NCBI GenBank assembly: GCA_018650085.1
Contig: JABIGQ010000033.1
Span: forward strand, 1-36,071
Source of the DNA: Candidatus Magasanikiibacteriota bacterium
GTDB lineage: Bacteria; Patescibacteriota; Patescibacteriia; Magasanikbacterales; UBA922
DNA length: 36,071 nt
Reading direction: 5' to 3'
Shown: piece after piece, positions 4,389 to 31,441 of the stretch
Numbering within the stretch: position 1 is the first letter of the stretch
Layout: the number at the start of each line of letters is the position of its first letter
Notes under the pieces: generated by a model
Database searches by the model: none
The model's input: only the letters and a program-made list of their open reading frames with translations
Told to the model about the DNA's origin: nothing
Translations under genes and position numbers: made by a program

Positions 4389-4571
4389 ATGAAAAAAGAG
4401 GAAACTAGTTGTGGATATTGTGGTAGATCAGAAGATCAAGAGTGGGGGATGGTGCGGCCTTGTTGCGATCTGCGGCAGAATTTTTCTGCATCTAAGCCTT
4501 CTAAGGATCTTCCTCTACAAGTGGGGACTACACCTAAAGATTCTTATTTTACTGTTGTGCCGAGGAAATGA
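4389..4571 (+). CDS. Small Cys-rich protein, 60 residues
   Basis: MKKEETSCGYCGRSEDQE opens with a CxxC knuckle, and CC follows at residues 25-26, so zinc binding is possible. The rest is polar. The start is supported by AAAAGGAGG (4376-4384) four bases upstream, one of the strongest SD sequences in the window. The gene is richer in G and C than its neighbours and lies with the cold-shock-like gene in a small patch of foreign-looking sequence. No family recognised. Confidence 0.55.
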   Translation: MKKEETSCGYCGRSEDQEWGMVRPCCDLRQNFSASKPSKDLPLQVGTTPKDSYFTVVPRK

Positions 4572-4763: not shown

Positions 4764-5018
4764 ATGAGTGACGAAACCAAGCATGGCGCTGTTAAGTTCA
4801 GTAGAGAGTTGGCTAAAAAAGGTACGTTCTACGGGTATGTTACTGTAGACAGTAGTGGAGAGAATCTTTTCTTCTACAGCGGTGATTACAAAAGTTCTGA
4901 CATGCCGCCCCGTATGCCCGAGAAGGGGGATAGGCTTTCTTTTAAGGTTGTGCGAGGCCCCAAGGGGAGCAATGCCAGCCAGTGGACGTTTGTTGACGAG
5001 CTACTCATAAAGGAGTAG
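4764..5018 (+). CDS. Cold-shock-domain-like (OB-fold) small protein
   Basis: 84 residues. The pattern GTFYGYVTVDSSGENLFFY, then GDRLSFKVVRGPKGSNASQW, matches the order of elements in cold-shock proteins: strands 1-2 with aromatic residues, an FFxx strand, then a G-x-x-V/L-x-F-x-V strand and the KGxxA strand. It lacks the strict KGFGFI RNP1 motif, so it is a divergent member. Likely role: single-stranded nucleic-acid binding. The start is fixed by GAAGGAG eight bases upstream. It is GC-richer than its surroundings and ends before a large palindrome and two terminators. Confidence 0.6.
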   Translation: MSDETKHGAVKFSRELAKKGTFYGYVTVDSSGENLFFYSGDYKSSDMPPRMPEKGDRLSFKVVRGPKGSNASQWTFVDELLIKE

Positions 5019-5341: not shown

Positions 5342-5491
5342 CTATGCTTTTTTTTCGTGCATAAGCTCGTGTAACTTTTGACCTGATGTTTTTGCTTTTG
5401 CGGCACGTTTCAATTTCTTGATATTTCTTTTTGCTTTTGCAATCAAACGTTTTTGAAATCTTATTTGATTATTTTTCTTTCGAACACCCAT
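5342..5491 (-). CDS. Tiny Lys/Arg-rich protein, 49 residues, possibly ribosome-associated
   Basis: The protein begins MGVRKKNNQIRFQKRLIAKA and ends GQKLHELMHEKKA. It is very basic (about 40 % Lys/Arg) and predicted to be one long helix. It lies under a near-consensus promoter (5518-5546), at the edge of the bL20-bL35-IF3-tmRNA-SmpB cluster and just before tRNA-Asp. Small size, charge and position suggest an RNA- or ribosome-binding protein; I cannot match it to a named ribosomal protein. Confidence 0.65.
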   Translation of the reverse strand: MGVRKKNNQIRFQKRLIAKAKRNIKKLKRAAKAKTSGQKLHELMHEKKA

Positions 5492-5563: not shown

Positions 5564-5774
5564 AAAAAAACCTACATGATGTTCATACAGAGCAAGAGGA
5601 TAAAGGAGGGTATATCCTCGCTCATGTATGAACATGATATAGGCTTTTAGTATAGATTTTCTTAGGGGAGATCACCATGGTGTTCGTACAGAGCAAGAGG
5701 ACAAAGGAGGGGGTGTCCCCGCTCATGTACGAACACGATAGTGACCTATGTTTCATCAATATAAAAATTGATGA
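5564..5774 (-). ncRNA. Candidate small RNA with two anti-Shine-Dalgarno hairpins
   Basis: Not recognised as a known family. The promoter at 5781-5809 predicts a start at about 5774. From there the RNA is a 5' hairpin (TCATCAAT/ATTGATGA, 5774-5753), a long hairpin (5746-5670), a second copy of it (5643-5571), then seven T (5570-5564), so the last hairpin is also the terminator. Both long hairpins share the same plan: outer stem, a fixed C-C mismatch, GAGC/GCTC inner stem with a two-base bulge, and a loop containing CCCTCCTTT. The 64-base cores of the two copies differ at nine positions. Six form three compensatory pairs, one turns A-U into G-U on this strand, two are in the loop, and none breaks a stem. 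The G-U (A-C on the other strand) fixes the transcribed strand. Confidence 0.8.
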
Positions 5775-5780
5775 TGCAAC

Positions 5781-5809
5781 AGTCTAGCAGTTTTCAAGCA
5801 AGTTGTCAA
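5781..5809 (-). promoter_or_regulatory. Promoter of the anti-SD small RNA
   Basis: On the minus strand TTGACA (5809-5804), a 17-base spacer and TAGACT (5786-5781). The predicted start coincides with the first base of the 5' hairpin of the RNA. Confidence 0.8.
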
Positions 5810-5864: not shown

Positions 5865-5886
5865 AAAAAATCCCCCAATTGGGGGA
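5865..5886 (-). terminator. Terminator of the rpmI-rplT transcript
   Basis: TCCCCCAATTGGGGGA followed on the minus strand by six T, 17 bases after the rplT stop codon. Confidence 0.9.
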
Positions 5887-5902: not shown

Positions 5903-6247
5903 TTATTTCACAAATTCAACAATCTTTTTAAACACTGCTGGATTTTCTGCAGCAATGTTAGAAAGCATTTTTCTGTTTAGTCCAACTTGTTTTTCTTTTA
6001 GCTTTCCTGTAAATACGCTGTAACTCATGTCATAGAGACGAGTTGCTGCGTTGATACGGGTTTGCCATAATCGTCTAAATGTACGTTTTTTTACACGACG
6101 ATCACGATATGCATGCATTCCTGCACGAGTATCTGCTGTTTTTGCTTGTTTTTGTAGTTTTCTTAGTCCACCACGAAATCCTTTTACGCGTTTCATTAGT
6201 GATCGGCGTTTTTTCAAGTGTCCTAAACCACGTTTTACTCTAGGCAT
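5903..6247 (-). CDS. rplT: Large ribosomal subunit protein bL20
   Basis: 114 residues. MPRVKRGLGHLKKRRSLMKR and GFRGGLRKLQKQAKTADTRAGMHAYRDRR are the classic bL20 N-terminal extension, followed by RLWQTRINAATR and the globular C-terminal part (FTGKLKEKQVGLNRKMLSNIA). It binds 23S rRNA early in assembly of the large subunit. It is encoded 10 bases downstream of rpmI in the usual infC-rpmI-rplT order and closed by a terminator. Length is normal for the family. Confidence 0.98.
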   Translation of the reverse strand: MPRVKRGLGHLKKRRSLMKRVKGFRGGLRKLQKQAKTADTRAGMHAYRDRRVKKRTFRRLWQTRINAATRLYDMSYSVFTGKLKEKQVGLNRKMLSNIAAENPAVFKKIVEFVK

Positions 6248-10480: not shown

Positions 10481-10538
10481 TAGCATGAGAACAGAAAATA
10501 ATGTATACTATAGATACATTATTTTTTTACATTTTTTT

Positions 10539-11144
10539 ATGCATTCACCTGTACGTATTTTAATAAAACGAAAGATTTTTTTATTGTTTGTTGGATTAAG
10601 TGTTGCGATATTATCTTTTCTAGTGACTATCATTATGCCACTGGAGTATCGTGCAGATGCAGATTTGTTAATTATTTCAAAAACAAGATATGGAGTAGAT
10701 CCATATACGGTTATAAAATCAGCAGAACGAGTGGGGGAGAATTTAGCACAAATTGTTTCTACAGATGATTTTTATAAAAAAGTAATTGATCAGCCGGGAT
10801 ATAATTTAGATACAGAAAAATTACAAGCGTTATCTCCTAGGGAAAGAAGAAAAAAATGGGGGAAAACAGTAAATGCGTCTGTAGTATTTGGGACAGGGAT
10901 ACTGCGTGTGAGTGCGTATAATGAAAATAATGAGCAGGCAAATGCATTTGCAGGGGCTGCGGTAGATGCGCTTGTGGCGCAAGGATGGGAATATGTAGGT
11001 GGAGATGTCACTATGAAGATAGTAAATCGTCCTGTGGTGACTCGTTTTCCTGTGCGCCCAAATATGATTGTTAATGTGGTGTTAGGATTTATTGTAGGTG
11101 TATTGCTTGCTGGAGTATTGGTGTTGAGAAAGAGGTTTTTGTAA
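10539..11144 (+). CDS. Wzz/YveK-like polysaccharide chain-length or export membrane protein
   Basis: 201 residues from MHSPVRILIKRKIFLLFVGL; an upstream Met at 10485 would extend it by 18 residues but coincides with the predicted transcript start. Two transmembrane helices bracket an extracytoplasmic domain (YRADADLLIISKTRYGVDPYTVIKSAERVGENLAQIVSTDDFYKKV, then GILRVSAYNENNEQANAFAGAAVDALV), the layout of chain-length determinant proteins. A proline lies before the second helix (VRPNMIVNVVLGFIVG). No tyrosine-kinase domain is attached. Role inferred: modulating length or export of a surface polysaccharide, together with the O-antigen-ligase-like gene at 34372. Confidence 0.75.
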   Translation: MHSPVRILIKRKIFLLFVGLSVAILSFLVTIIMPLEYRADADLLIISKTRYGVDPYTVIKSAERVGENLAQIVSTDDFYKKVIDQPGYNLDTEKLQALSPRERRKKWGKTVNASVVFGTGILRVSAYNENNEQANAFAGAAVDALVAQGWEYVGGDVTMKIVNRPVVTRFPVRPNMIVNVVLGFIVGVLLAGVLVLRKRFL

Positions 11145-12434: not shown

Positions 12435-13469
12435 ATGAGTAAATTAGTAAATAACAATGGGTATAAAAAATTAGTTTTTTGTATTACTGATATACTGGAG
12501 TTTGGACGTAAAAAAGTTTATTTGCAAGTAAACGATGTCTTGGCAAAAACATACTGGAATGTAGGGAAGCAGATTGTTGAATATGAACAAAAGGGATATA
12601 AAAAGGCAGAGTATGGTTTTGGGGTATTGAAAAATTTATCAAAAGATCTGACTCAGAAATTTGGTAGGGGGTTTTCAGTAGATAATCTGGAAAACATGAG
12701 AAAGTTTTATATAGTGTATCCAATTTCCGAGACACTGTCTCGGAAATCTCAGACACAGGCTGATCAATCGTTTAAACTTAGTTGGTCTCATTATGTCCGC
12801 TTAATGGCAATGAAAGATAACGATGAGCGTAGTTTTTATGAGATTGAATGTATTGAAAATAATTGGTCACTCCGTGAACTGAATCGTCAATTTGACTCGG
12901 CATTGTATCAAAGATTAGCTTTAAGCAAAGATAAAGCTGGAATTAAGAAATTATCAGAAAAAGGACAAGTAATTGAAAAAACAAGCGATAGTTTAAAAGA
13001 ACCGTACATTTTAGAATTTTTAGGAATTGAAGATTCCCATCAATATTCTGAAAGTGATTTGGAAACAGCCATTATTAATAATTTGGAGAAATTTCTTTTA
13101 GAACTAGGGAAAGGCTTTACATTTGTAGCTAGACAACAACGTATCACAAATGGTCCAGACCATTATTTTATTGATCTTGTTTTTTATAATCGATTGCTTC
13201 AATGTTTTGTTTTAATGGATTTGAAAATTGGAAAAATCAAACATCAAGATATTGGACAAATGCAGATGTACACGAATTATTATGATAGAGAAGTTAAAAT
13301 CAAAAAAGAAAATCCAACTATTGGAATTATTCTTTGTAGAGAAAATGATCATTTTGTGGTGAAATATTCATTGCCAAAAGAAGAAAATCAAATTTTTGCA
13401 AAAGAGTACAAACTTTATTTACCCAAAAAAGAGGAATTGGAGGCAGAAGTGAAAAAACTTTTGGATTAA
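12435..13469 (+). CDS. YhcG/DUF1016-family protein with C-terminal PDDEXK nuclease domain
   Basis: 344 residues. The N-terminal DUF1016 part reads VNDVLAKTYWNVGKQIVEYEQKG, KAEYGFGVLKNLSKDLTQKFGRGFS, NMRKFYIVYP. KLSWSHYVRLMAMKDNDERSFYEIECIENNWSLRELNRQFDSALYQRL follows, all characteristic. The C-terminal PDDEXK-like domain has the acidic residues in HYFIDLVFYNRLLQCFVLMDLKIGK (D and D-x-K) and QMQMYTNYYD. Family members are suspected nucleases or DNA-modification-associated proteins found in variable genome regions. A perfect palindrome of about 22 bases (12722-12744) lies inside the gene in the variable loop before KLSWSHY. The gene interrupts an otherwise CPR-specific operon and may be inserted cargo. 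Confidence 0.9.
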   Translation: MSKLVNNNGYKKLVFCITDILEFGRKKVYLQVNDVLAKTYWNVGKQIVEYEQKGYKKAEYGFGVLKNLSKDLTQKFGRGFSVDNLENMRKFYIVYPISETLSRKSQTQADQSFKLSWSHYVRLMAMKDNDERSFYEIECIENNWSLRELNRQFDSALYQRLALSKDKAGIKKLSEKGQVIEKTSDSLKEPYILEFLGIEDSHQYSESDLETAIINNLEKFLLELGKGFTFVARQQRITNGPDHYFIDLVFYNRLLQCFVLMDLKIGKIKHQDIGQMQMYTNYYDREVKIKKENPTIGIILCRENDHFVVKYSLPKEENQIFAKEYKLYLPKKEELEAEVKKLLD

Positions 13470-13500: not shown

Positions 13501-13698
13501 ATGTCTGTACAGTCTAAAAATAATAATTTAACAGATAAAGATCGTGAATTGGCTTTAGAGTTGTATGAGGAGTTAGGTATGGATATAGAAGAGCTTTTAG
13601 GAGAAATTCGTAGTGTGAAGAAAAAGATTCTGGAAGAAAAAAATAAAAAGGGTATTAAAAAAACACTTGAGGATATTATTTCTATTCAAGATTCTTAA
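13501..13698 (+). CDS. Small coiled-coil protein, 65 residues
   Basis: It is highly charged and predicted to be helical throughout (LTDKDRELALELYEELGMDIEELLGEIRSVKKKILEEKNKKGIKKTLEDI). It lies between the DUF1016 gene and the giant gene with 31- and 10-base gaps, so co-transcription is likely. It could be a partner or chaperone of the giant protein; nothing in the sequence proves this. Confidence 0.6.
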   Translation: MSVQSKNNNLTDKDRELALELYEELGMDIEELLGEIRSVKKKILEEKNKKGIKKTLEDIISIQDS

Positions 13699-13708
13699 TT
13701 TTTATAGT

Positions 13709-16700
13709 ATGGGTAACACTCGTGATAAAATACATAGTTTACGTAGTCTTGAAAAAAAGTCTATCCCTAAATTAGAAGAACATGTACAAAAAGAGAAAAG
13801 TGAAGAGAGTATTCGTGAAGTAAAAAAAGATGCTGGTACTGTTATTAGATCTTTAGAGACAGCAGGTAAAAATCTTAAGAAACATTTGGAAGCTGCAGGG
13901 ATTGAAAGTGGTGCTCAGGAGCAAATATTTGGAAGAGCAATTACAGAATTGAAAGAGCTGGTTGAATTAGTTGGTACTAATTTAGATACAGAAGGTGATA
14001 CATTGGAGGCTACTGCTTTTACAACATATATAAAACGTATAATAAAAAAAGCTACTGCAATTACAAAAAAAATGATACAGCTTGATGACATTCTTCGTCT
14101 TTCTAAACATAAAGAAAAATTAGAAAAGCTTCAAAAAGATATGGGGATAAAAAGTGTAGAGTCAGAATCTCCATCAGAAGGCGGTGAAGCACAAGAAGAC
14201 TCTGATGATTTAATAGATAATAATATGGCACAAGAACAAAATGAGGGAGAAAAAACACCTGAGGTTAAAGAAAAAATAAAATTATTGTTAGATCCGAAAG
14301 AGAATGCTATTTTTGATTATTCTGATCAAGACGATGGATGGAATTGGAAAAAAATAAAAATATTAAAAGAAAGAAAAATTGATGATGAACCAGCGATACA
14401 ATTTGAAATATTAGGAGAAAATGAAAAGATATTAGTAAGTTATGAAAATTGGAATTATTATGTAGATAATAAGATGATTGCTACAGAATTAGAAGATGAA
14501 GAAGAAGCGCCAGTAGAACCAGAAAGCGAACCAAAAATAAAAAGGAAAGATTATAAGGAGTTTAGAGAATTTAGAAAAAGTGATGATTTAAAAATGAAAT
14601 GGGAATATTTTGATTATCTTTTAGGACTTACAAAAAAAGAGGATGGTACTATAGATATCTCTAAGTTAAAAGCATTTGAGAAAATAGGTATTTTAGATGA
14701 AGGAGCATATCTTGGTAGAGATCGTGCAAAAAAAAGGCGTGAAGAATTTATTGGGGATGAGGAAGCTTTTCGTGCATGGAAGGATAAGAGGAAGGATGTG
14801 TTTAATCTTATTAATGATGAAAACGAAGAAAAAGAGAAAAAAGAAGCTGAAGAAAATGAAAAAATAAATAAAAAATATAAGGCTGAAAGTGAGTGGATTA
14901 CTTTAAAAGGTGGTAAAAAAATAATTAAGATAATAGGCTTTCGTGATGATGATATTATTTATACTATAGATGGAGGAGAAAATAACTCAGTTAGAATAGA
15001 AGATTTTAGAAAAAAATTGGAAAATAATAATGATTTAGCTGAATTAAAAGACATCTCTACTGGTTATTTTAAAAAGGATCCAAAAAAAGGAAGTGAGTTT
15101 GAGATTGTTTGGAATGAAGAGAAAATACAAGTTGAAGTAGTTGGTTTTATTTTTGATAATGGCGAAAATATAGTAATTAAACAAGGAAATAGGTTTCATT
15201 CTCCTTTATCTGCAGAAGATTGGGGGAAGTTTGAATTTGTAGATGGTGATGTGGCAGTGGAAGGTGGAGAAAAACAAGAGCTTGCAGAAGCGAAAAAACT
15301 ACTTGTGGATGCTATATCGACCATGGAAGGTGGAAAAGCACCAGAAGTAGAATTATTAGGACCTGAGGAAGGAGAAAAGACATTGGAAGAGTTGTTTAGT
15401 GATTTACATAAAGATATTGACATTGATAAAGTAAATGCTTTTGCTACAGTAATTAAAACACGTATAAATAGTGGTGAAATTCCTGGGATTGATTCTGAGA
15501 ATAAAAATATTGTGGCAGGACTGGATTTTGCAATAATAGAATTAATAAGAGGTGGGCAAAAATATAAAAAAGATTTAGTAAATTTTATAGCTACTCATAT
15601 ATCAACAATACAAAAATCAATAGAGAATGAAATCATACAAAAAAAAAGCAGAGGAGAAGAAATTGATGAACAAGTTTATCTTAAAGAGACGAAAGAAGAA
15701 ATCGATAAATTAGATCGTCTTATTCCTGTGACGATAGCTTTGCATGAGAAGGAATATTTAGCTATAAAAGTTCTAGCTTTTTCATTATTAGATGAATTTC
15801 GCAGTAATGAAGTAGAATTGAATAAAATGAAAAATTCTTCTGATGGAAGCAAACCTGTAAGTGAATCAGTAGATGCATCTCTTATGGATAATGTAGAAAA
15901 AGCGAAAGAAAATACACTAGAATTAGCAAAAGTATTTTTAGAAGATGTTTCAATTCGTTATATTACACCGAAGGGAAGTATAGAAAATCCATATTCTTCT
16001 GCAACAGAATTACAAAAAAATCTTTTAGAAGCAAAATTTGTTGCTATGGGTGATGCTCATGGATCAGCAAGAAAAATACTTGAAGTTGTTATTGCTTCAG
16101 GTATTGTTAAGTTTGATTCAAGAGAAAAACAACATAATTTTCTTAAGTTGTATCAGGAAGCTGTGGAGGCAAAACATGAGTTTCTTTATGAGGGAAATAA
16201 GTATATTGAAGCTGAAAAAAGAGGTATTGATTATCCATTAGAACAATATAACAAATCATATCTTGAACTTGAAAATAAAATTGTTACTCTTGTTAAACAA
16301 ATTGAAGATGATATATCAATAATAGATTCAGAAAAACTTCTTTTATTAGCAGGAGATACTATATTTGATCGTGGTTTAAGTGATGTGCTTACAATTGCGA
16401 TTATAAATAAAATAAGAGAAAAAAATAATAATGTAAAGATACTTGCATCAAATCATGATCTGCATTATTTTTTTACGAATGTGTCTTCGAATGATAGAGG
16501 TTCGATGTATCCTGATGATATAGAAAATATATTATATGAAGATTATTTAAAAAATACTACGCTTTTTCATTATCATTATGATGGGGATATTCCTATAATT
16601 TCTTCTCATGCATATCAAACTCAAACATATATAGACAAAATAAAATTAGAAATTAATTTTTCAGATGATATTAATAACACAAATATTGAAGAATTTGTAA

Positions 16701-19700
16701 ACCGAGCAAATAATTGGTATCAAAAAGAAATTTCAGAGATGATACAAGAAATAAAATCTGGCAAAAAAGGGAGGGATATAGAAAAAAAACATGTTCTTCT
16801 TTCTAATATTGTTTGGGGAGAATCTTATGGGGAAGGTGGAAGAAATAGAGATAGTGGTAAGATAAATTTAGACCCCTCATTTTCTAATGTAGATGGTATA
16901 CTATATTTAGTTGGTCATGACAATAAAGTGGATCAAGCAGATTCTGTAAGAGGAATCTCTTTAAATGATTATCATTTACAAATGGAAAAAAATGAAGAAA
17001 TGGCACTATCAATATTTATAGCAGATGTACCTAATTTAGAACAAAAAAAGGAAGTAAAGAAGCCAGCAGATGCACCACCTATAGCTAATGTAGAAAAAGA
17101 GAAAGAAATGCAAGAGATTATTGTAGATGGAGAAACATTTAGTGTGGGAGATAAATTTGTATATAAAAATGGAAAAGAGTTTGAAATTACAAGAATCGTA
17201 CCTAGCAGTCTTGATGCAAGTGTCATGAATATAATTTTGACAGATACTGATGGAAATGAGGAATCTTATGTGACTACAATGTTTATTCTGTCTTTAAATA
17301 CGGGTGTTTTCAACAAAAAAGAAGGTGGGCAAGCGTCAGTAGAAGCAAGATCAGAACCAGAAGAAAATAAATTTGGTTTAAATCCAAAGGAGGGAGAGAC
17401 ATTTTTTATCAAATTAAAGGGTAGTGATGTTTATGTTGGATTGGTTGTTAGTTCGATAGAAAATGGCAAAGTTTTTTTTAAGGATACTCGTGGAGATGCT
17501 GAGGTAATTCATGAATATTCATTTGAAATTTGGAATAATGCTGTGAGTAGTGGCGATGTAAAGAAAGAAGATCCAAAAATAGAGAACTTAAAAAAAGAAA
17601 AAGAAATTTCGGAAGGTTTTAAAAGTAGACTTGATACATTAGTTACTTCTGCGCGTGATGTGTTTCTTACCGGTGAAAATATTGAAAAAAATAAAATTGG
17701 AAATAAAGAAGAAATTAAATTATTAGAATATTTATACATCTTAAGAAGGATTAGTAATAAAGATGATATAGCTAGTAGGTTTTTTTCTGATGGTAAGTTT
17801 TCATTAAAATATGATGATCTTAGGAGTGATTCAGATGGGTTTTATAGTGAAATTATAGGGGGACAAAAAAACAACATAGATACTAATTTATATAAATTTG
17901 AAGAGGTTAAAGAATTTGATAAACGAGAAAAAAAAATAAAGATTATTATAGAAGCAGTGATAACTGGCATTGAAAGAAAGATTGATTTTTTAAAGAGACA
18001 GATTAATGAGTTAGTAAAAAAGGTAGAAGGACGAGAAGCTGCAGCAGAAAATCCTGCAAGTGAAACAGTAGAATTAGTTCCATTATTGGAATTAGTCAAA
18101 GATGATAAATTTACTATTTTGTTTAGTGATAATAGTGTTTGGAATGGGGTTTATGATAGAGTAGATAGAGGAAAAATTTTCATGATTGTAGAAAATGAAA
18201 ATAAAGAAATGGCAATAGAACGATGGAATCAATTATTTAAAGAAGGTAAAATTAATAAGGTGGAAACAAATGTGATTTCACCAGCACCAGAATCACAGCC
18301 TGTAGTAAAGAAGGAAATAAAAGATAAAGAACCCTCTGAAGAGGAAAAAAGGATTAATGATTTTTTCCTGAAACATAGTTCTGAAAATATAGAAGATAAT
18401 AGAGATGAGATTGTAAAATATTTTAAACAACTAAAAGAAAATAAATTAGAGATTAGTGTAGAAGAAAATGTCAAATCTTTAGATTTTGCCATGGCATTGC
18501 TGGATGTGGGTTCTGTAGGGGTTTTTGAATTGAAAGAAACTATAAATTTAATACTATTATTTGAGAAAAATCTTTTAGAGCAGATGAAATCAGATATTTA
18601 TTTAAAAAAAGAAGATTGGCAGAGAGAAATAAAAGGAAAATTTTCAGTTACAGTAAAAGAACATGAGGCTGCTTTTTTTGCTGTATTAGATTCTGTGGTG
18701 GAGAGTGTAGAAGAAAAAGAAGCTACAGCAATTAAGAAAAAATATCTAAAAGATAGTGAATGGATTGCTACTCCAGAAAATGAAGATCCTCAGAATATTA
18801 AAATCAAAGATGTTAGTGATAACTATGTTATATTAGAAGTTGATGGAGTAGAAAAAACAATGAGTATAGGAAATTTTGTTGGAGTGCTTTTGGAGACTCC
18901 ATTGGTTGCGAAGAAGAAAGCAGAGAAAGAAAAAGTAGAAGTTATCAATAAATTGGAAAGATTACAATCTCAAATAGATGATGCGGATACTTTAGCTGAA
19001 TTTAATACTATTATTATAGAGACAGCAAGAGAAAATCCAAGTACAGCTTTGAGTAGTTTAATTAAAAAAATTAATAAGATAACAACACCATTTAACGAAA
19101 AGAAGCTTTCAAAAGAGAATCTTATTGGTCTTGTTAAGTATCTGGAATTGGATAAAGGAATTAGACTAAAAACTGAAGAGAAAATTATAGAATTAATTGG
19201 AAAAGAGTATAGTCAAGTTGTAGAGCCTGATGTTGAAGAAGCTCCAGAACCAACTATACAAGAAATTCTAAGTAGAATAGGAACTTCAAAAATGATAGAA
19301 TTGTATAAGTCATTTTTTGCAGAAACAGAACCTACAGTACGGCAAGTAAAAGATTTGTTGAATGGAGAAAATAATGTTCCTGATGAATTTAAGGAAAAGT
19401 GGAATGAAAAATACGCTGATGGGATTTTTACGGCTATGCAGGCATTTGCGCAAATAGATAAACAAAACGCTATTATGCGTCAGGTATCAATGATAGAGCG
19501 TCAGGAAGAAAAAAATGAGAAAAAATCATTTTGGAAAACAGTATTTACAAAGAAAAACATGTTAAGCGCTGGGCTTGCTGGGTCAGTTGTTTTAGGTACT
19601 GGTGGGGCAGGATTGGGATTAGGTATAGGGGCTCTTGGTTTAGGCTGGGGGGCTAGCGCGGTAGCATCTAGCGCAGCAGCTGCAGGAGTCTGGGCTGGTA

Positions 19701-22389: not shown

Positions 22390-23814
22390 ATGTCCTTGAA
22401 GCCCATGTTTGTCCTTGGTCTTTTCGTCCTGTCATCTTTCGTTTTGAGTGGTTGTGGGGCTAGTAAGCCTCCTGTCCCTAGCTCGGAGAGTATCTGTGAG
22501 CACTATGCCTCCACAGAGGGGGGTATGAAGGCTATTCAACTCAGTGAAATCTATGCATGGTGTGCACAAGAAGTCGCTGAAGATGACATGCCAAAATCCT
22601 TGCGTTTCTATAAAATCTTAGAAGAAGCAGGGAGAAATGCTGGAGTTGACCCAAGAGTTTTGTCTGATCTCAAGCAAAAGAGTGTTATGGCTTCTTTAGG
22701 AAGGCCTTCATTTCTGGACGCTGATAAGGATGGGCTCTATATAGACAACTGTCCCATGAAATCAAATCTGGATCAAAAAGATACAGATGGTGATGGAGTG
22801 GGTGATGCCTGTGATAACTGCCCCAGGATGAAAAATCCAAGTCAGGCAGATTTGAATGGAGATGGCATAGGTAATCGCTGTGAGAAAGATAAAGATAAAG
22901 ATGGTATTATTGATCATATGGATAACTGTCCAAATGTCAAAAATACTAAACAAGGCGATGCTGATAAGGATAAAGTGGGGGATGCTTGTGATGATGATGC
23001 TGATATGGATGGTATTGTCAATAGCAAAGATAACTGTCCTACAAGGCATAATCCTGATCAAGCAAATGCAGATAGTGATACACAAGGCGATGTCTGTGAT
23101 GATGACCTAGATAATGACGGGAAATCTGATGAGGTAGACAATTGCCTAGACATCTCTAACCCGACTCAAAAAGATGCAGATGCAGATGGAGTAGGTGATG
23201 CCTGTGACAACTGTCCAGCAGTCCCAAATCCTGAGCAAAAAGGTGCAGATAAAGACAGAGATCGCATAGTTGATGACTGTGACAATGCTCCTAATATCTT
23301 TAATCCCGGGCAAGGGGATGAGGATCATGATGGCATTGGGGATGTGGCAGATAATTGTCCAATGGTTTCCAATACAGATCAAACTGATTCTGATGGAGAT
23401 CGTGTAGGCGATGTTTGTGATAACTGTCCAGCGGTTTCAAATACTCTGCAAAAGGAAAAAGATGCTTGTGCTTCCATAAGCATTGGTGTAGGAGAAGAAT
23501 CTTTCCTTATAAGAAACAGAGGGATACAAGTATACTTTATCTTGTCTCCTGGTATCTTTAAAAAGCATTCTTATGCCGAAGGGAAAGTTATAGAGGGATG
23601 GAAACTTCCATCTTCTCGTAATCTAAGACAGCTACGAACAGCTTGTGCCTCTAGGAAACTCCCAAAGAGGTTCAAGGAAATGTGTGTGTGTATTTGGACA
23701 AGTGATTCTCCCAGCAGTGGAAGAATCCAAACAATAAACGCACAAAGAGGGAGTCTGGGGTCCACAGTTTTCACTAAAAATGGAAAATGTGGAATTGGTC
23801 TAGTCCCCAACTAA
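22390..23814 (+). CDS. Lipoprotein with thrombospondin type 3 calcium-binding repeats
   Basis: 474 residues from MSLKPMFVLGLFVLSSFVLSGC, chosen because GAGGAG lies nine bases upstream and a lipobox (LSGC, Cys 22) follows a proper signal peptide. Residues about 25-115 are helical. From about 120 to 360 at least nine TSP3 units occur, of the form D-x-D-x-D-G-x-G-D-x-x-D-N-C-P-x-x-x-N-x-x-Q, rich in Ca2+-binding aspartates. The last 115 residues form a Cys-containing globular domain whose EGWKLPSSRNLRQL and CIWTSDSP resemble lectin-like DUF1566 domains; this is a weak match. A surface-anchored adhesin or spacer is likely. Composition is intermediate between the AT-rich genome and the GC-rich part of the island. 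Confidence 0.85.
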   Translation: MSLKPMFVLGLFVLSSFVLSGCGASKPPVPSSESICEHYASTEGGMKAIQLSEIYAWCAQEVAEDDMPKSLRFYKILEEAGRNAGVDPRVLSDLKQKSVMASLGRPSFLDADKDGLYIDNCPMKSNLDQKDTDGDGVGDACDNCPRMKNPSQADLNGDGIGNRCEKDKDKDGIIDHMDNCPNVKNTKQGDADKDKVGDACDDDADMDGIVNSKDNCPTRHNPDQANADSDTQGDVCDDDLDNDGKSDEVDNCLDISNPTQKDADADGVGDACDNCPAVPNPEQKGADKDRDRIVDDCDNAPNIFNPGQGDEDHDGIGDVADNCPMVSNTDQTDSDGDRVGDVCDNCPAVSNTLQKEKDACASISIGVGEESFLIRNRGIQVYFILSPGIFKKHSYAEGKVIEGWKLPSSRNLRQLRTACASRKLPKRFKEMCVCIWTSDSPSSGRIQTINAQRGSLGSTVFTKNGKCGIGLVPN

Positions 23815-23910
23815 GAAGACTAACTACACTGATATTGATTTTTCTAGGGGTAAAATGAGCGTCTTTTTTTTGGAAGTATTATCCATATGAAAGCGAAGAG
23901 AAATTAAACG

Positions 23911-23990
23911 TACCTGTCATGTAAATCTATTCATGACAGGGACAGAAATATGGTTATAAATAAGCATAAACATTTTGTAACTATATTCTG
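23911..23990 (+). repeat. RepC-like structured element, diverged copy 0
   Basis: Stem CCTGTCATG/CATGACAGG (23913-23921, 23932-23940) is directly followed by GGACAGAAAT and a second stem (ATATGGTTATAAA against TTTTGTAACTATAT, two G-U). This is the same order as hairpins 1 and 2 of RepC copies 1-3 (ACAGGGATAGGAAT, then GATTATAA). It lies downstream of a lipoprotein gene, as the other copies lie downstream of exported-protein genes. The 23815-23910 part has only a T8 tract after GTC. Confidence 0.6.
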
Positions 23991-24006
23991 AAAATCAAAC
24001 GTGCTC

Positions 24007-24035
24007 TTGACAAGATTTGAATTTTATGTTATGGT
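24007..24035 (+). promoter_or_regulatory. Promoter of island unit 2
   Basis: TTGACA (24007-24012), a 17-base spacer and TATGGT (24030-24035). Predicted start about 24042, leaving a 250-base leader. Confidence 0.85.
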
Positions 24036-24069
24036 GCTACGTTATGTCAATGAGAAATAAATTAGTTGT

Positions 24070-24108
24070 TGATTTTTATAGATAGATAAATGATGTCTAT
24101 AAAAATCA
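24070..24108 (+). other. First leader hairpin of unit 2
   Basis: TGATTTTTATAGA (24070-24082) and TCTATAAAAATCA (24096-24108) form a perfect 13-pair stem close to the predicted 5' end. Confidence 0.75.
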
Positions 24109-24214
24109 GCGGGTAATATATCTAAAAGCAAGTATATCTTGTTTACTAGATTATACCAACTGTATTGTACATTACAACATAATAAACCAGAGGAATAAAA
24201 ACCTTTTTTGAAAC

Positions 24215-24280
24215 TGTGTCCTTGCTTGACAAGCATACGCAGGGCACGCAACAAGCGTGTTCTGCGTAAAGCAGGACACA
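24215..24280 (+). promoter_or_regulatory. Three-way-junction leader RNA directly before the unit 2 SD
   Basis: The closing stem is TGTGTCCT (24215-24222) with AGGACACA (24273-24280). Inside it are a small hairpin TGCTT-GAC-AAGCA (24223-24235) and a 13-pair helix (24237-24249 with 24255-24267, two adjacent G-U pairs, loop AACAA). The junction ends three bases before AGGAGG. Such compact junctions are typical of riboswitches and protein-binding leaders. I do not recognise a known class. Confidence 0.65.
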
Positions 24281-24292
24281 CAGGAGGAAGAG

Positions 24293-24931
24293 ATGGCGAA
24301 AGAAAATGAACAACAGCCTGCAGAGGTTGTCGTAGTCCCAGAGTGGGCTACAAAGCTCTTGGCGAATCAAGAGGCTCAGGGGAAAATCCTTGATGTTCTT
24401 CAGAATAGAACAGATGTCGAATCTTTGATCTCTGGTACCAAAGGTATCTTGGAAACTCAAGGTGCTCAGATTATAGATATCAATAACAGCACTAAGAGTA
24501 TCTTGGAGGCTCAGAAAAAGAGTTCCCAGATGCTTGATAAAGCAAAAAAGGCTATTGAAGGGATCACAGCCAGTGATAATTGGTTCGTCCGTTTGGTAAA
24601 GTGGGTGTTTTCTCACGCTAAATGGACGGTCTTGATTGTGTTAGTAGCCTGGTTTCTGGGGAGCAAATTTGCCCCTGGATCGACCGATGCAGTAGAGAAC
24701 TTCGTTCTAGACATTCTTCCATTTGTGGAGTCTCAGGATACCGCAACTCCCGCCAAAAAGGAAGGATTCTCGGAAGAGGAGTCGAGTCCTAAGGGCGGAG
24801 AGAAGAAGATCCAAACGTTGATCCCTCTGAACCAAGAGAGTAGCTGTGTGCAAGAGTGTGCGGCGATCATGGTTTCAGCAGGCACCCCTAAAGCGGACGC
24901 TCAGGCAGACTGTAAAAAAGACTGCCCATAA
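24293..24931 (+). CDS. Membrane protein with coiled coil and C-terminal twin CX3C motif (family A, member 1)
   Basis: 212 residues from MAKENEQQPAEVVVVPEWAT, start set by AGGAGG. No signal peptide. Residues 20-90 form a coiled coil with a repeated phrase (GTKGILETQGAQIIDINNST, then TKSILEAQKKSSQ); one transmembrane segment at about 110-124 (WTVLIVLVAWFLG). The polar remainder ends in CVQEC-x17-CKKDC. The paired CX3C motifs should form a disulfide-linked helical hairpin, as in other twin CX3C proteins, if the C-terminus is outside the membrane. Members 2 and 3 (24984, 29565) share this tail. The gene is markedly GC-richer than the genome average. Function unknown. Confidence 0.75.
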   Translation: MAKENEQQPAEVVVVPEWATKLLANQEAQGKILDVLQNRTDVESLISGTKGILETQGAQIIDINNSTKSILEAQKKSSQMLDKAKKAIEGITASDNWFVRLVKWVFSHAKWTVLIVLVAWFLGSKFAPGSTDAVENFVLDILPFVESQDTATPAKKEGFSEEESSPKGGEKKIQTLIPLNQESSCVQECAAIMVSAGTPKADAQADCKKDCP

Positions 24932-24966
24932 GTTTTCTAACCCAGAGTCATCGATTGACTCATAGT

Positions 24967-24983
24967 GAGATAAGGAGTATCTC
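24967..24983 (+). promoter_or_regulatory. SD presented in a hairpin loop before the second unit 2 gene
   Basis: GAGATA (24967-24972) and TATCTC (24978-24983) form a perfect six-pair stem whose five-base loop is AGGAG, ending at the base before the ATG. Confidence 0.6.
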
Positions 24984-25352
24984 ATGTTCTATATCCTCAT
25001 GCTTATCGTTTCTTTGTTGAGTGGATCGTCAGCATTTGCAGGCGAGTCAAAGAAGACGAAGAAGAAGGCACCTTCTCTCGTGGCCGTGCAGGCCGTGATG
25101 AAGATCGCTATTAAGAAGGCTGTCGCTGCTGAGAAAAAGGCAGATGCCCTTGAGAAGAAGGTTAATGCCCTTGAGGAGAAGCTTTCTGGTAAGAAAGTTT
25201 CTCCTCCTGAAGAGAAAGTCTCTGCAAAGAGTGAAGAGAATAAGGAAGGGTGTGTAGAGATGTGTGTAGCTATCATGATGGAGGCTTCTTCTGATATGAC
25301 GAAGAAGATGGCTACTGCGGACTGTACGGCTGATTGTCCTGGAGGTAAATGA
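24984..25352 (+). CDS. Secreted coiled-coil protein with C-terminal twin CX3C motif (family A, member 2)
   Basis: 122 residues. Signal peptide MFYILMLIVSLLSGSSAFA, then a Lys-rich coiled coil (AIKKAVAAEKKADALEKKVNALEEKL) and a tail with CVEMC-x19-CTADC. The tail clearly resembles member 1 (CVAIM here, CAAIM there; ADC-x3-C in both). Because this member has a cleavable signal, the Cys tail acts outside the membrane, which supports disulfides. The stop codon overlaps the region of the next start codon, indicating translational coupling. Codon use is rich in AAG and GAG, unlike the AAA/GAA-rich native genes. Confidence 0.75.
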   Translation: MFYILMLIVSLLSGSSAFAGESKKTKKKAPSLVAVQAVMKIAIKKAVAAEKKADALEKKVNALEEKLSGKKVSPPEEKVSAKSEENKEGCVEMCVAIMMEASSDMTKKMATADCTADCPGGK

Positions 25353-26293
25353 TGAAAAAAGTCATTGTTATGATGATTTTTCTCCTCGGTTTTTGTGCCA
25401 CCGCTGAGGCACAATTGCAGGACGCTAAGATAGCTGCTGCTCTTAACCTTTCGCGTCGAGCCATAAAGACGATGGAAGTGCATGAGAAGGTGCACCCAAG
25501 CACTCCTGGACTGACTCCCTGCATGCTGGCTGTCCAAGCCGCGCAGAGGAGTTGCAATGGGCCCGGCTGTAACTTTACAGCAGTAGGTCCAGCATGTCAG
25601 CTGGCTGCTAAGAAGGTTCCGAACCTTGCCCCTGCGCTGTATCGCTTGAAGAGGCGAGTTGGTGATCTTGAAAAGACGGTCATTGATATTGGTCATCTGA
25701 GTATTAAAAACAGTGGTCGAATCGATGTCAACTCTGAGGCTATTAAAAAGCTGAAGAGTCGTGATTGTGAAAGTCTCCCTCCAGAAAGCATGAAACAGTG
25801 CTTTGCTTCTTTGGAGAAGCGTCAGAAATCGTTGAATAACGATGATGGTGGCCAGGTTTCTGGGGAGCAAATGGTTGAAGCTTTGCGGATTAAGAGAGGG
25901 CTACCTGCCTCGAACACTGTGTATAAGAGGACCGTCACTCATGCTGATGGGAGTCATACCACTGTTCGGAGAGGACCACAATCAATGAGTAATCTTGCGT
26001 TACTCGCGCAGATCGCTACTGCGGATAGCGGCGGAAGCGCCTTCAATGTCGGAGAGTTCGCTCTTTTGACGGCAGGAGGTGGTTTCGTAGGCTGTGGTCT
26101 GGGAGGAGTTATTGCTCCTCAGAATTTGGATAAGGATGGATTCGACGAGTCTGGCTGTGGATACGGCGCCTTGATTGGTGCTGGAAGCATGGCTATCGTT
26201 GATGTGTTTCTCCAAAACTCTCGCCTTTCATCCCGCGTCGCTTTCGCACCTACCGTAGGTGGGTTCGCGTTTGGATGGCACGGCTCTTTCTGA
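25352..26293 (+). CDS. Secreted Cys-containing protein with C-terminal glycine-rich hydrophobic hairpin (family B, member 1)
   Basis: 313 residues from MKKVIVMMIFLLGFCATAEA|Q. I prefer this Met to the one at 25349 because GGAGG is then six bases away; its A is the last base of the previous stop codon. Mature part: helical region, then a Cys motif SCNGPGCNFTAVGPACQ that aligns with CLNTKGCQPSLTISACQ of the 30174 gene. A central region with coiled coil follows, then two Gly-rich hydrophobic segments around two Cys (GGGFVGCGLGGVIA ... SGCGYGALIGAGSMAIVDVF), again as in 30174. Probably a membrane-inserting or pore-like C-terminus. GC-rich like the rest of the unit. Its stop codon lies in a hairpin (GGCTCT/AGAGCC, 26282-26298). 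Confidence 0.75.
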   Translation: MKKVIVMMIFLLGFCATAEAQLQDAKIAAALNLSRRAIKTMEVHEKVHPSTPGLTPCMLAVQAAQRSCNGPGCNFTAVGPACQLAAKKVPNLAPALYRLKRRVGDLEKTVIDIGHLSIKNSGRIDVNSEAIKKLKSRDCESLPPESMKQCFASLEKRQKSLNNDDGGQVSGEQMVEALRIKRGLPASNTVYKRTVTHADGSHTTVRRGPQSMSNLALLAQIATADSGGSAFNVGEFALLTAGGGFVGCGLGGVIAPQNLDKDGFDESGCGYGALIGAGSMAIVDVFLQNSRLSSRVAFAPTVGGFAFGWHGSF

Positions 26294-26319
26294 GAGCCAC
26301 CCCCCTCTGGTTTATTTTA

Positions 26320-26569
26320 CAAAATGACCGCTATTAATCGATCCTACCTGCACACCTTGTGCGTTATCGATTAGGCACATTTTGTCTAGCCCTGTTTCGT
26401 TCTGATTCAGGGCTCTCGAATTGTTATTTTTTCTTATATATTATATGATGAAGAAATAATTGACGGGAAATAACAATCCTAGCTCATTACAAATGAAATA
26501 ATATAATAGTGTGTTGTGTTGTCCCAGAAGGTGATTTGTCTCGTACAAAGAACTTTCTGGGACAACACA
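26320..26569 (+). repeat. Structured intergenic element RepA (first of two copies)
   Basis: About 250 bases, aligned over its whole length with 31049-31300. Part 1: nested stem CAAAATG/CATTTTG enclosing ATCGAT/ATCGAT and GCACA/TGTGC (26320-26384). Part 2: terminator-like GCCCTG/CAGGGC (26389-26413) followed by ATTTTTT. Part 3: a linker with TGACGGGAAA and TCATTACAAAT. Part 4: a long hairpin, 15 perfect pairs (26515-26529 with 26555-26569), with an inner TTTGT/ACAAA stem. It therefore ends the transcript of unit 2 and begins the leader of unit 3; a -10-like TATAAT lies before part 4. Confidence 0.8.
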
Positions 26570-26668
26570 AGCAGCTTCGCGAAAGCAAGTTGCTAACATA
26601 CGCCCCATAGGTCGACGTACTGTTTATCTATGGATGTTTGCACCCAGACGAGATGCATAGGAGAAATC

Positions 26669-29251
26669 ATGTCTCGTTTTACTTTGGCGCTTAGCGTCAT
26701 GTTCATCCTCCTCTTGGCCGCTTGCGGTCAGGATCACATTGACAGTAACACTTGGTCGGGGGAGACTTCAGAGTCTGCCCTGATCGACGAGGACGGGGAC
26801 GGTGTCCCTGATTCTATCGAGTCCGAGCTGTGTGGGAGGGAGGCTATCCTGTTGGATAGTGTCCACCCAGCCTACAACAGCGACGAGGGCTTCGTGCCCG
26901 CCGCTGATGAGATCTGTGATGGCCTCGACAACGACTGTGATGGTCGTGTAGATGAGGACGAAGATGAGATCGTCCGCGACCTTGACGGCGATGGAATCCC
27001 TGACTGCCGTGATGGTGATATCGACGGGGACTTTGTCCCAGAGTTTGATCCGCAGGGTAACGTCCTTGATTGTGACGGGACAAACCCAGACATTCACTTG
27101 AATGCGACTGAGGTTTGCGACGGTATCGACAACAACTGCGACGGCGTGATTGATGAAGAGAACGCTGCGGGTTGTACAGAGTTGTACTGGGATGAGGATG
27201 AGGATGGCTTTGGTCATTCTGATATTCCCGCCCTATGTCTCTGTGAGTCTGTTGATGATTACACTGCCACTCAGGCGGGTGATTGCAATGACGGTGAGCC
27301 CGGCACCTTCCCAGGTGCTGAGGAGCTCTGTAACGGCATTGACGATAACTGCAATGGCAGTATCGATGATGAGTATACAGATACCGACAGCGATGGAGTC
27401 GCTGACTGTATCGATGGAGATGATGATGACGATGGCGTTCTAGATGGGATCGACAATTGCATCCTCGTCTCCAATGCTGACCAGACCGACACTGATGGTG
27501 ATGGCCTTGGTAATGCCTGCGAGGCAGACAGCGACAACGATGGCGTTTGTGATGACGTCGTAGCGACTCTAGATGTTTGTTCTGCAGGTCCGGACAACTG
27601 TCTCCTGGTTTGGAACCAGGATCAGTTGGATACGGATAGCGATGGACTCGGTGATCTCTGCGATGATGATGACGATGATGATGGTGTTGAGGACGTCGAG
27701 GACAACTGTGTCTTTATTCCCAACCCAGATCAGAACGATAACGACGACGATGGACTTGGTGATCTCTGCGATCCTGATGACGACGATGATGGTGTTGTGG
27801 ATGGCGAGGACAACTGTGTCTTTACCCCCAACCCTAATCAGAACGATAACGACGACGATGGACTCGGTGATCTCTGCGATCCTGATGATGACAACGACGA
27901 GGTCTGTGACAGCGATGAGGCGATCCCAGGGATCTGCTCTCTTGGTCCAGACAATTGTCCCAACGTGGCAAACCCTGATCAAGCCGACACCGATGGTGAT
28001 GGCACAGGCGATGCTTGTGTAGATGACAATGACGGTGATGGCGATCCTGATGCAAGTGATTGCGACGATGCCGATCCGCTCATCCACCACGCTGCTCCTG
28101 AGATATGTGATGGTGTGGATAACGACTGCGACGGCGAAATCGACGAGATCTTCCCTGATAACGACGGGAACGGCGTTGCGGATTGCTTAGATGGTGATAT
28201 CGACGGTGATGGTGTTCCGAACGCTATGGACTGCAACCCTACGGATCCTGATATCTACCCCAACGCGCCCAACGATGAGTGCGATGGTGTGGATAATGAT
28301 TGTGATGGGGAGATTGATGAGAGTCCAACTGCCTTGACCGGCACGAGATTCTTCTTCGACGGTGATGTGGACACCTATGGTGTCTTGGACCGTAGTTTGC
28401 TCATGTGCGCTCCGAGCGGTCGCTTTTCTGCGATTGTGGCAGGTGACTGTCAGGACGGCATGGCAAGCATTAACCCAGGCGCAATCGACATCCCAGATAA
28501 CGGGATCGACGAGAACTGCGATGGTTTTGACGCCGATGGACAGTGCGTCCTCGATTGTGATAATCGGGTCTGCGGTGCTGATGGTTGTGGCGGAAGCTGT
28601 GGCGATTGTGATGCAGGGAACGTTTGTTCCCTTGACGGCCAATGCGAGATAATCCCTCTTACGGAGGGTTCTTGCGAAGACGGTCTCGACAACGATGGCG
28701 ACGGTCGCATCGACTGTAGTGACAGGGACTGCCATTCAGACCCCGTCTGTGAACAGTGTCAATCAGGCAGCGACTGCGAGGATAATAATCCCGGAACTGT
28801 CAATGTCTGCACGCTGGATAATCAGTGTGCGTTCATCTGGATAGATGGGCACTGTAATCAGGACAACCCATGTGATGGTGCTGATGAGGTCTGCGTGGAT
28901 AACTTCTGCGTGGATCCAGCACCTGAGTGTGTTGAGGATGTAGACTGCGCTGGTGGTGAGGTCTGTGATGATGGTGTTTGTGCGGAAGGGGCTGTTCCTA
29001 TCTCGCCAACTGCTCTCTGCTACACCCCTGACCCCGAATACGTCGGTGCAATGATCCACTTCTGGGGAGCCTCTGGCGCCCTGGGTCATGTGCCAGCTAT
29101 CGAAGGGCTGAACTGTACTCCTGAGGGGGTTGATTCAGCACTAGTGATGGCCATTGAGGTTGGACAAGTAGCGACAGGCGACTGTCGCAATGATCCCAAC
29201 GGTGTTCGTGTCCACGATCTGTCAGGTCCAGGGCGCGGCTGCCAACGTTAA
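26669..29251 (+). CDS. Lipoprotein with MopE-type and thrombospondin type 3 repeats
   Basis: 860 residues from [19 protein letters not shown], fixed by AGGAGA six bases upstream; the lipobox Cys is residue 19. The chain alternates MopE-type metal-binding motifs ([34 protein letters not shown] and several more) with TSP3 units ([19 protein letters not shown] type). It then has a Cys-rich segment ([14 protein letters not shown]), EGF-like Cys pairs ([31 protein letters not shown]) and a C-terminal Cys-containing domain. Such architecture is common in myxobacterial and related surface proteins and unexpected in a CPR genome; the DNA is strongly GC-rich. A Ca2+-stabilised surface fibre or adhesin is likely, and horizontal acquisition probable. 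Confidence 0.88.
27653..27895 (+). repeat. 108-bp tandem repeat inside the MopE/TSP3 lipoprotein gene
   Basis: GATCTCTGCGAT recurs at 27653, 27761 and 27869, exactly 108 bases (36 codons) apart, with two nearly identical units and a partial third. This indicates recent expansion of TSP3 units and a site where copy number can vary. Confidence 0.85.
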
Positions 29252-29349
29252 GTAAAACTTGCGTTTGTACACCCAAGGTGGGTATGCAAAGATACATCTT
29301 TCTGGAAGGTAAGATGTAGAGCAAACAAGAACAGAAAAATCCTTCTACA
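29252..29349 (+). other. 3' region of the MopE gene with two small hairpins
   Basis: TTTGTACACCC/GGGTATGCAAA (about 29263-29288) and ACATCTT/AAGATGT (29294-29317). They precede RepC copy 1, so the transcript would end in a row of about six stems. Confidence 0.5.
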
Positions 29350-29511
29350 GCTAAGCACATTTTGCTTCTTAAAAACAGCGAACGTGCTTGAAACCAAAAA
29401 ACAAGCTCCCTGTAATTTCGTAAGAACGTAATTACAGGGATAGGAATTGTGATTATAATATGGTATTATAGTCACATACCATAAAAAAGTCTTCTATATG
29501 AAGGCTTTTTT
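29350..29511 (+). repeat. Structured 3' element RepC, copy 1
   Basis: Hairpin 0: AAGCAC/GTGCTT with TTTGCT/AGCGAA and conserved loop CTTCTTAAAAA (29353-29389). Hairpin 1: a 32-base imperfect palindrome beginning CCCTGTAATT (29408-29439). Hairpin 2: TGTGATTATAATA/TATTATAGTCACA (29449-29477). Hairpin 3: AAAAAAG...CTTTTTT terminator. Copies 2 and 3 repeat the order with covarying stems. It follows the MopE-type lipoprotein gene. Confidence 0.85.
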
Positions 29512-29564
29512 ATTCGCTATTTACAACAGAGAATTCCTGTGAGACACAGGGAAAGGTATGTGAG

Positions 29565-30173: not shown

Positions 30174-30258
30174 ATGAAGATGCTTACAGTTTTTTTGTTC
30201 TCGATCCTTGGTTTCTGCGCTACCATTGAAGCACAGGTAAGACGTGGTGAGTTTACTG
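30157..30258 (+). repeat. Duplicated secretion cassette, copy at 30157 (partner 31340-31441)
   Basis: From G30157 the sequence runs almost identically (about five differences in 102 bases) with that from G31340. It covers the last five codons of the 29565 gene and the signal peptide and first mature residues of the 30174 gene. Similarity stops abruptly after GEFTAVxMG. Confidence 0.9.
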
Positions 30259-31025
30259 CAGTAGAGATGGGAGTAAAGAAAGTATATCTCTTAATGAAAG
30301 ATATGCAAAAACAGATAGTTGTCTTAAAAGAAAAGGGAGTGAATGTTGTTAAGATTAATAAGTCTATTCAACGCATTACGCATTGTCTAAATACCAAAGG
30401 ATGTCAACCTTCTTTAACGATTAGTGCTTGTCAGCGGACGATTAATCGGACTGCTCATAGGTATAGTCGTATTAATTTCAAGCCTCTTATTTTAAAGCTC
30501 GAGCTAATGGCAAAGCAGGCAGAGGTTCGGCATGATGAAATCATCAATCAAGTTGATGAGCATGACAGGGATGTAAAAGAGAAGCTTGATTCAATGGATC
30601 AAAAGTTAGATAAATTGATCAAGCGTGGCATGTCTATCTCGTCTTGTCATTCTGCTGCTATGATATTGTTTACTATGAAAGAAGCCGGTGTTTCAGAAGA
30701 TGGGCTTGATAGTTTTGCTGAAGCAGTAAGAGTTTGTGTAGAAAGGGGGACAATTGATGTAGATAAGATTGTAGAATCTTGTTTAGATCATGGAGTGAAA
30801 TGTTCAATTACTTCAGGTAACGGAAGAAGACACTTTGTAGAACCTAAAAATAGGGGATCTGATGATACTATCTTTAAATGGGGTTTTCCAAGCCTTATTG
30901 GGAGTGGCGGTGCTCTTGCCATTTGTCTAGAACAGGATAATCCTACAACTTCTTGCAGCTCTTTTGTTCTGGTTGGATTAGCTTCTGGTCTTTTATTATC
31001 AGGCATTTGGGAAATTTTTGATTGA
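30174..31025 (+). CDS. Secreted Cys-containing protein with C-terminal hydrophobic hairpin (family B, member 2)
   Basis: 283 residues. Signal peptide MKMLTVFLFSILGFCATIEA, mature start QVRRGEFTAVEMGVKK. The Cys motif CLNTKGCQPSLTISACQ aligns with that of the 25352 gene. A coiled coil follows (HDRDVKEKLDSMDQKLDKLIKRG), then four Cys in a helical region and two C-terminal hydrophobic segments separated by a Cys-bearing polar loop (GSGGALAICLEQDNPTTSCSSFVLVGLASGLLLSGIWEIF). Overall architecture equals 25352, but the gene is AT-rich. GGAG lies in the last codons of the preceding gene. It is followed by RepB, as 25352 is followed by RepA. Confidence 0.75.
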   Translation: MKMLTVFLFSILGFCATIEAQVRRGEFTAVEMGVKKVYLLMKDMQKQIVVLKEKGVNVVKINKSIQRITHCLNTKGCQPSLTISACQRTINRTAHRYSRINFKPLILKLELMAKQAEVRHDEIINQVDEHDRDVKEKLDSMDQKLDKLIKRGMSISSCHSAAMILFTMKEAGVSEDGLDSFAEAVRVCVERGTIDVDKIVESCLDHGVKCSITSGNGRRHFVEPKNRGSDDTIFKWGFPSLIGSGGALAICLEQDNPTTSCSSFVLVGLASGLLLSGIWEIFD

Positions 31026-31048
31026 TATAATAATAGATGGTTCTTTTG

Positions 31049-31300: not shown

Positions 31301-31339
31301 ATTTTAGTATCCTGCTAATATTTTTTTGTCCACATGAGA

Positions 31340-31441
31340 GTAAGGAGTTAAGATAAATGAAGATGCTTACAGTTTTTTTGTTCTCGATCCTTGGTTTCTG
31401 TACTACCATTGAAGCACAGGTAAGACGTGGTGAGTTCACTG
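31340..31441 (+). repeat. Duplicated secretion cassette, copy at 31340
   Basis: Near-identical to 30157-30258. Here the fossil codons AAG GAG TTA AGA TAA of the family A gene are out of context and serve only as the SD (AAGGAG) for the 31357 gene. Confidence 0.9.

Follow-up and report, generated by a model that had tools for sequence, protein, structure and literature searches.

A predicted small RNA of Magasanikbacteria with anti-Shine-Dalgarno hairpin loops, and its relatives ahead of Shine-Dalgarno-led secreted-protein genes

The window analysed here, a stretch of 36,071 nt from contig JABIGQ010000033.1 of a Candidatus Magasanikiibacteriota bacterium (assembly GCA_018650085.1), carries on its minus strand, downstream of the infC-rpmI-rplT operon, a predicted small RNA (sRNA) with the following features.

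5564..5774, minus: predicted stand-alone sRNA of about 210 nt, with promoter and U-tract; fold z -13; kept in 40 of the family's 46 genomes
5781..5809, minus: sRNA promoter, -35 TTGACA at 5809-5804, 17-nt spacer, -10 TAGACT at 5786-5781; read directly
5753..5774, minus: 5' hairpin specific to the window genome; fold prediction
5669..5747, minus: hairpin copy 1, loop CCCCCUCCUU at 5704-5713; R1 model 93.3 bits
5566..5648, minus: hairpin copy 2, loop UACCCUCCUU at 5603-5612; R1 model 89.9 bits
5564..5570, minus: U7 terminator tract of the sRNA; read directly
5865..5886, minus: terminator belonging to the infC-rpmI-rplT operon and distinct from that of the sRNA, whose promoter lies downstream of it; inverted repeat CCCCCAATTGGGGG, then T6
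5903..6247, minus: rplT (bL20; Pfam PF00453), the conserved upstream neighbour; a same-strand rplT lies upstream in most homologous loci

The promoter, of sigma-70 type, and the U7 tract are present as an earlier note on this DNA had described them, and the two copies of one complex hairpin that it reported are borne out as 65-nt direct repeats, 86% identical with nine differences and 101 nt apart. The 5' hairpin that it placed ahead of them is there in the window but is missing in the same-genus genome G001. The transcript has a predicted folding energy of -95.6 kcal/mol; dinucleotide shuffles give -40.8, and none of 200 equalled it (z = -13). A plus-strand transcript was considered and rejected: its fold is weaker, and promoter and U-tract sit on the minus strand. 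The surroundings are as previously named for bL20, IF-3, SmpB and tmRNA; for bL35 the identity comes from sequence and place, there being no Pfam match. Between the sRNA and tRNA-Asp, at 5342-5491, lies a gene for a small basic protein of about 50 aa (MGxRKKN...) that matches nothing in Pfam and that many relatives keep.

Both 10-nt hairpin loops carry CCCUCCUU followed by U and, if the first base of the closing side is counted, expose CCCUCCUUU. The 3' end of the window genome's own 16S rRNA reads GGATCACCTCCTTTCT, so that CCUCCUUU is exactly common to loop and 16S tail; eight bases are the anti-Shine-Dalgarno (anti-SD) sequence. The claim that the loops display the 16S 3' end, for which a comparison with this genome's own rRNA had been proposed, is therefore upheld by an exact match.

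A plain DNA search of 59 related genomes gave matches in only four; the same-genus genome has three tandem copies and two others have one each. Because this search reached so few genomes, covariance models were needed. The first, built from seven hairpins of the genomes found by the DNA search, has matches in 40 of the 46 genomes of the family and in 58 of the order's 86. The hairpins, one to three copies per RNA, nearly always sit close behind rplT (in most loci 14-400 nt downstream on the same strand); the position near rplT, tmRNA and SmpB is conserved across the homologous loci. Named relatives from a pattern scan are nearly all Candidatus Magasanikbacteria. Scan matches in Planctomycetales, Exiguobacterium, Legionella, Rhodovibrionaceae, Azambacteria and Clostridia were taken as chance, since the covariance model reports just the Clostridia one, at E 0.59.

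Alignment of 61 hairpins establishes the structure: 94.4% of cells are paired, and 28 of 29 base pairs show two-sided, compensatory change, adding to the covariation noticed within the window. None of 500 shuffles reaches the observed pairing or covariation values, and sliding the register lowers pairing to 41-47%. The loop 8-mer CCCUCCUU is invariant in all 61. Relatives thus retain both loop and stems, the test on which the idea of an RNA gene had been staked. The lower stem keeps its sequence as well (GUGUUYGG/CCRAACAC), and the internal bulges are conserved; the C-C mismatch that the earlier note had singled out as retained in both copies is not a feature of the family. Rfam 15 contains no meaningful match for the sRNA or for six homologous loci, in keeping with the proposal that the RNA was undescribed; a mir-567 match was dismissed as chance (18.8 bits against a gathering threshold of 90). 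A mobile repeat of REP or MITE type was likewise rejected, there being as a rule one locus per genome, syntenic with rplT, with one extra in G019. That extra copy (L066; C26:16577-16649) is stand-alone, away from rplT, and precedes an aspartyl-tRNA synthetase-like gene. From sequence, the existence of an uncatalogued conserved RNA family is close to certain.

At 57 of 60 first-copy loci of the order there is a promoter that departs from consensus at no more than three positions, compared with 26.5% of shuffles; it usually lies 13-25 nt upstream of the hairpin, and a U-tract follows the last hairpin copy in 55 of the 60. The typical form is consequently a short sRNA with a single hairpin that resembles a terminator, and the two-copy form of the window is one among several cases with extra copies. 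The RNA has its own promoter and its own terminator, as a stand-alone trans-acting sRNA should. A body that ends in a U-tract, and that stands directly behind rplT in a few genomes, G019, G010 and G034 among them, could also serve the rplT operon mainly as a structured terminator or as a stabiliser of its 3' UTR, with the loop just a conserved terminator-loop motif. We consider this very improbable: in the window rplT already has its own terminator ahead of the sRNA promoter, and a promoter does intervene between rplT and hairpin, as it does at nearly all loci, the few genomes just named differing; a terminator has no need of an invariant 8-nt loop; and homologues in other orders lie in leaders, away from rplT and with no U-tract.

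Those homologues came to light with a second covariance model, which gave weak matches in other orders that shared a recurrent anatomy; phylum-wide, only one of 380 genomes outside the order passed 1e-4 with this model. A third model, built from the other-order matches and three sRNAs and applied to the genomes of the class (381) and of the order, matches 10 of 12 genomes of another order, 67 of 86 of the order itself and 82 of the 381 of the class, in many families. The hairpin measures 70-85 nt throughout. Outside the main Magasanikbacteria families its loop is mostly CUCCUCCU or similar, and it is mostly a 5' leader, in the order promoter, about 30 nt, hairpin, 64-310 nt, SD and the gene of a signal-peptide protein; a wzz-like gene usually lies upstream. 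One locus of this wider family (L285, G192 C1) has two divergently oriented hairpin copies about 140 nt apart. An SD of at least 5 nt precedes 26 of 38 genes downstream of leader hairpins, against 4 of 27 adjacent wzz-like genes, even with the latter scored more generously. Since the leader-linked genes are not translation genes, autoregulation by a ribosomal protein is unlikely. Homology between the window protein 33019 and the leader-linked proteins was not established by hhalign (E 0.064).

With 64-310 nt separating the hairpin from its SD-led start codon, and with internal bulges conserved, the leader might sense a ligand or temperature and switch access to the SD in cis, the stand-alone form being a derived, trans-acting version. 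Such a switch seems improbable to us. Covariation of loop and SD in cis was not found (permutation p 0.044 by length and 0.30 by energy, and none within families), a small single hairpin makes a poor ligand pocket, and in the stand-alone form there is no SD in cis for the loop to act on.

The association of the leader form with SD-led secreted genes has a counterpart in the window, whose surface locus and SD-led genes are as follows.

4389..4571, plus: SD-led ORF, candidate target; AAAGGAGG, 4 nt, ATG; predicted duplex with the loop -12.2 kcal/mol
4764..5018, plus: SD-led ORF, candidate target; AAGGAG
10485..11144, plus: Wzz/GNVR-like gene, start of the linked surface locus; Wzz E 4e-4 and GNVR E 2e-4, both below the curated Pfam cut-off; no SD
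22390..23814, plus: SD-led TSP_3 lipoprotein gene (Pfam TSP_3), candidate target; AGGAG; start is codon 19 of the listed ORF
24293..24931, plus: SD-led gene, candidate target; AGGAGG before codon 12 of the listed ORF
24984..25352, plus: SD-led signal-peptide gene, candidate target; AAGGAG
25349..26293, plus: SD-led signal-peptide gene, candidate target; GGAGG
26669..29251, plus: SD-led MopE/TSP_3 lipoprotein gene, candidate target; AGGAG; start is codon 13 of the listed ORF
30174..31025, plus: SD-led signal-peptide gene, candidate target; AAGGAG
31357..32745, plus: SD-led signal-peptide gene, paralogue of 33019; AAGGAG
33019..34161, plus: SD-led signal-peptide coiled-coil gene, candidate target; AAAGGAGG
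34372..35868, plus: Wzy_C O-antigen ligase gene (Pfam PF04932), far side of the linked locus; no SD

The strong SD AAAGGAGG is indeed found before 4389 and 33019, as had been pointed out, and the statement that most native genes lack an SD holds for the window and for the complete genome G028. Between wzz (10485) and wzy (34372) the genes for secreted proteins and lipoproteins are SD-led, and wzz, wzy and the core genes are not; start codons here were picked by script, so individual SD assignments may be wrong. Over the window as a whole AAGGAGG is not above chance (5 occurrences, 4.5 expected) and is informative only by its placement before starts. Within the SD-led secreted, lipoprotein and coiled-coil cluster (22390-34161) the products of 31357 and 33019 are paralogous, 36% identical over 206 aa, and the leader of 33019 contains a long near-perfect inverted repeat (32943-32990) unrelated to the anti-SD hairpin. 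The surface locus also contains a YhcG/DUF1016 nuclease-like gene beside a small ORF (12435-13469), and at 13667-22129 the window has a very large ORF of 2820 aa with a match to a WipA-like phosphatase domain (E 9e-10).

The linkage recurs elsewhere. A wzz-like gene accompanies rplT, at a distance of about 4-6 kb, in 19 of the 22 regions examined, and across the 22 an SD precedes 22 of 59 signal-peptide-like genes against 37 of 265 others (Fisher p 1e-4). In G028 the order is the same: the sRNA (100.5 kb) is followed by wzz (105 kb), SD-led secreted genes (109.6-112 kb) and wzy (114 kb). In that genome, read as 50 stretches and counting genes of at least 100 aa, AAGGAGG precedes 2.9% of genes, over a background of 0.08%. 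The SD-led genes are short, and 37 of their proteins match five Pfam families, compared with 103 for 74 SD-less length-matched genes; several stand in runs, for example near 376 kb and 740 kb. These short genes, almost devoid of Pfam families, are possibly acquired or accessory. The ribosomal-protein neighbours of the sRNA seem incidental, and the wzz/secreted-protein locus 4-6 kb away the more telling link.

The earlier note had proposed that the RNA sequesters strong SD sequences or an SD-binding factor. That SDs are the target is strengthened, because SD-led genes form a small accessory and secreted class and because in other orders the hairpin leads SD-led secreted genes; the evidence does not separate sequestration of SDs from the binding of a protein specific for the hairpin. 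An SD-directed function of the hairpin loop is our leading hypothesis, with a probability of roughly 0.45. The sRNA loop would pair in trans with the SDs of the small set of SD-led mRNAs, the candidates being mRNAs for secreted proteins and lipoproteins from the wzz-wzy locus close by and those of small accessory ORFs, and pairing would block 30S binding and repress initiation, leaving the SD-less majority of genes untouched; in other orders the leader hairpin could repress its SD-led secreted gene in cis. Expression of the sRNA, pairing and repression are what we infer from genomic data. That the loop copies the 16S tail and competes with the 30S subunit for SDs is the simplest reading of the invariant loop, of both architectures and of the link to SD-led genes. 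The mean number of strong SD-ATG sites is 14.2 (control 7.4) in genomes of the two main families with the sRNA, lower than the 24.2 (control 5.8) of 60 other genomes of the class, which fits avoidance of off-targets, in a comparison confounded by ancestry.

Other observations count against SD pairing. Genome-wide, the window's own genome has no excess of strong SD-ATG sites (14 against 12 controls); loops are predicted to pair with SDs no better (-7.7 to -12.2 kcal/mol) than the 16S tail does; apart from what relatedness brings, a loop does not vary with the SD of the gene that follows it; and the stem GUGUUYGG/CCRAACAC is more conserved than mere presentation of a loop requires. Conservation of the stem suggests possible protein involvement, and so keeps in play a model in which the entire hairpin, loop and conserved stem together, is the site of an RNA-binding protein, which would regulate the secreted gene through the leaders and be titrated by the stand-alone sRNA as a decoy; resembling the anti-SD, the hairpin could then act as a mimic of the 16S rRNA 3' end, recognised by a protein that attaches there on the ribosome. 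Bulges and stem sequence conserved beyond pairing speak for this model, as do the tandem array of one to three copies and the lack of loop-SD covariation; moreover the identical full hairpin type occurs in leaders and in sRNAs, and in family f54 the stand-alone U-tract form and the leader form adjoin, behind a wzz-like gene (L264, L269 and L274). We nevertheless hold this model to be rather unlikely, as no protein candidate was found, the stand-alone form is the only one in most Magasanikbacteria, and the invariant core exactly complements the SD and sits beside SD-led genes.

These bacteria may have two channels of initiation. Most genes would use one without an SD; secreted, surface and accessory proteins would have a small SD-led one, governed, perhaps with a dedicated protein partner, by a class-specific RNA domain with the anti-SD of the ribosome itself, acting as a cis leader in most orders and as a trans sRNA in Magasanikbacteria. 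The conserved, strongly covarying RNA family extends through many families of one class, and its association is with a locus for surface proteins and polysaccharide. With it, the question why some lineages retain a perfect anti-SD when few genes use it can be tested concretely: the SD-led genes are few, their products mostly lack known domains, and an RNA regulator of their own, present in a cis and in a trans form, seems to serve them.

Among known systems, CsrB and RsmZ are sRNAs whose repeated hairpins match elements of target leaders and titrate CsrA. The loops of CsrB carry GGA, the SD sense, whereas those of the Patescibacteria RNA carry its complement, CCUCC, with no GGA as in a sponge of the CsrB type. 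In Flavobacteriales, a lineage that rarely uses SDs, the 16S tail is sequestered and an SD-led rpsU is kept under special control (PMC9976891), which involves bS21 on the ribosome and no sRNA. Our literature search found no Patescibacteria or Magasanikbacteria sRNA with an anti-SD motif, in a coverage that leaves out many subscription papers, where an earlier description is possible. The closest known RNAs are the alpha-r14/NfeR1 cuckoo RNAs and the Neisseria NmsR pair, the Patescibacteria family being previously uncatalogued. In Alphaproteobacteria the cuckoo sRNAs hold an ultraconserved anti-SD motif unpaired in hairpins, several copies per RNA, and are proposed to pair with many mRNAs (PMC10746234). 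The Patescibacteria RNA shares with them an anti-SD motif in the loops of hairpins with varying stems. Their motif is CCUCCUCCC and their stems are highly divergent, whereas the Patescibacteria loops have CCCUCCUU (61 of 61) or, in distant relatives, mostly CUCCUCCU, on stems of partly conserved sequence; unlike them, too, the Patescibacteria RNA usually has one copy, exists in a leader form, belongs to a mostly SD-less host and matches no Rfam 15 covariance model. NmsRA and NmsRB of Neisseria meningitidis have conserved anti-SD regions, one of them in a loop, and mutagenesis implicates these in translational down-regulation (PMC5362039); they differ in their UC-rich partial complementarity, unrelated structure, arrangement as sibling genes instead of tandem hairpins, and phylum. 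By analogy, the Patescibacteria RNA would work like alpha-r14/NfeR1 and NmsR while being a member of neither.
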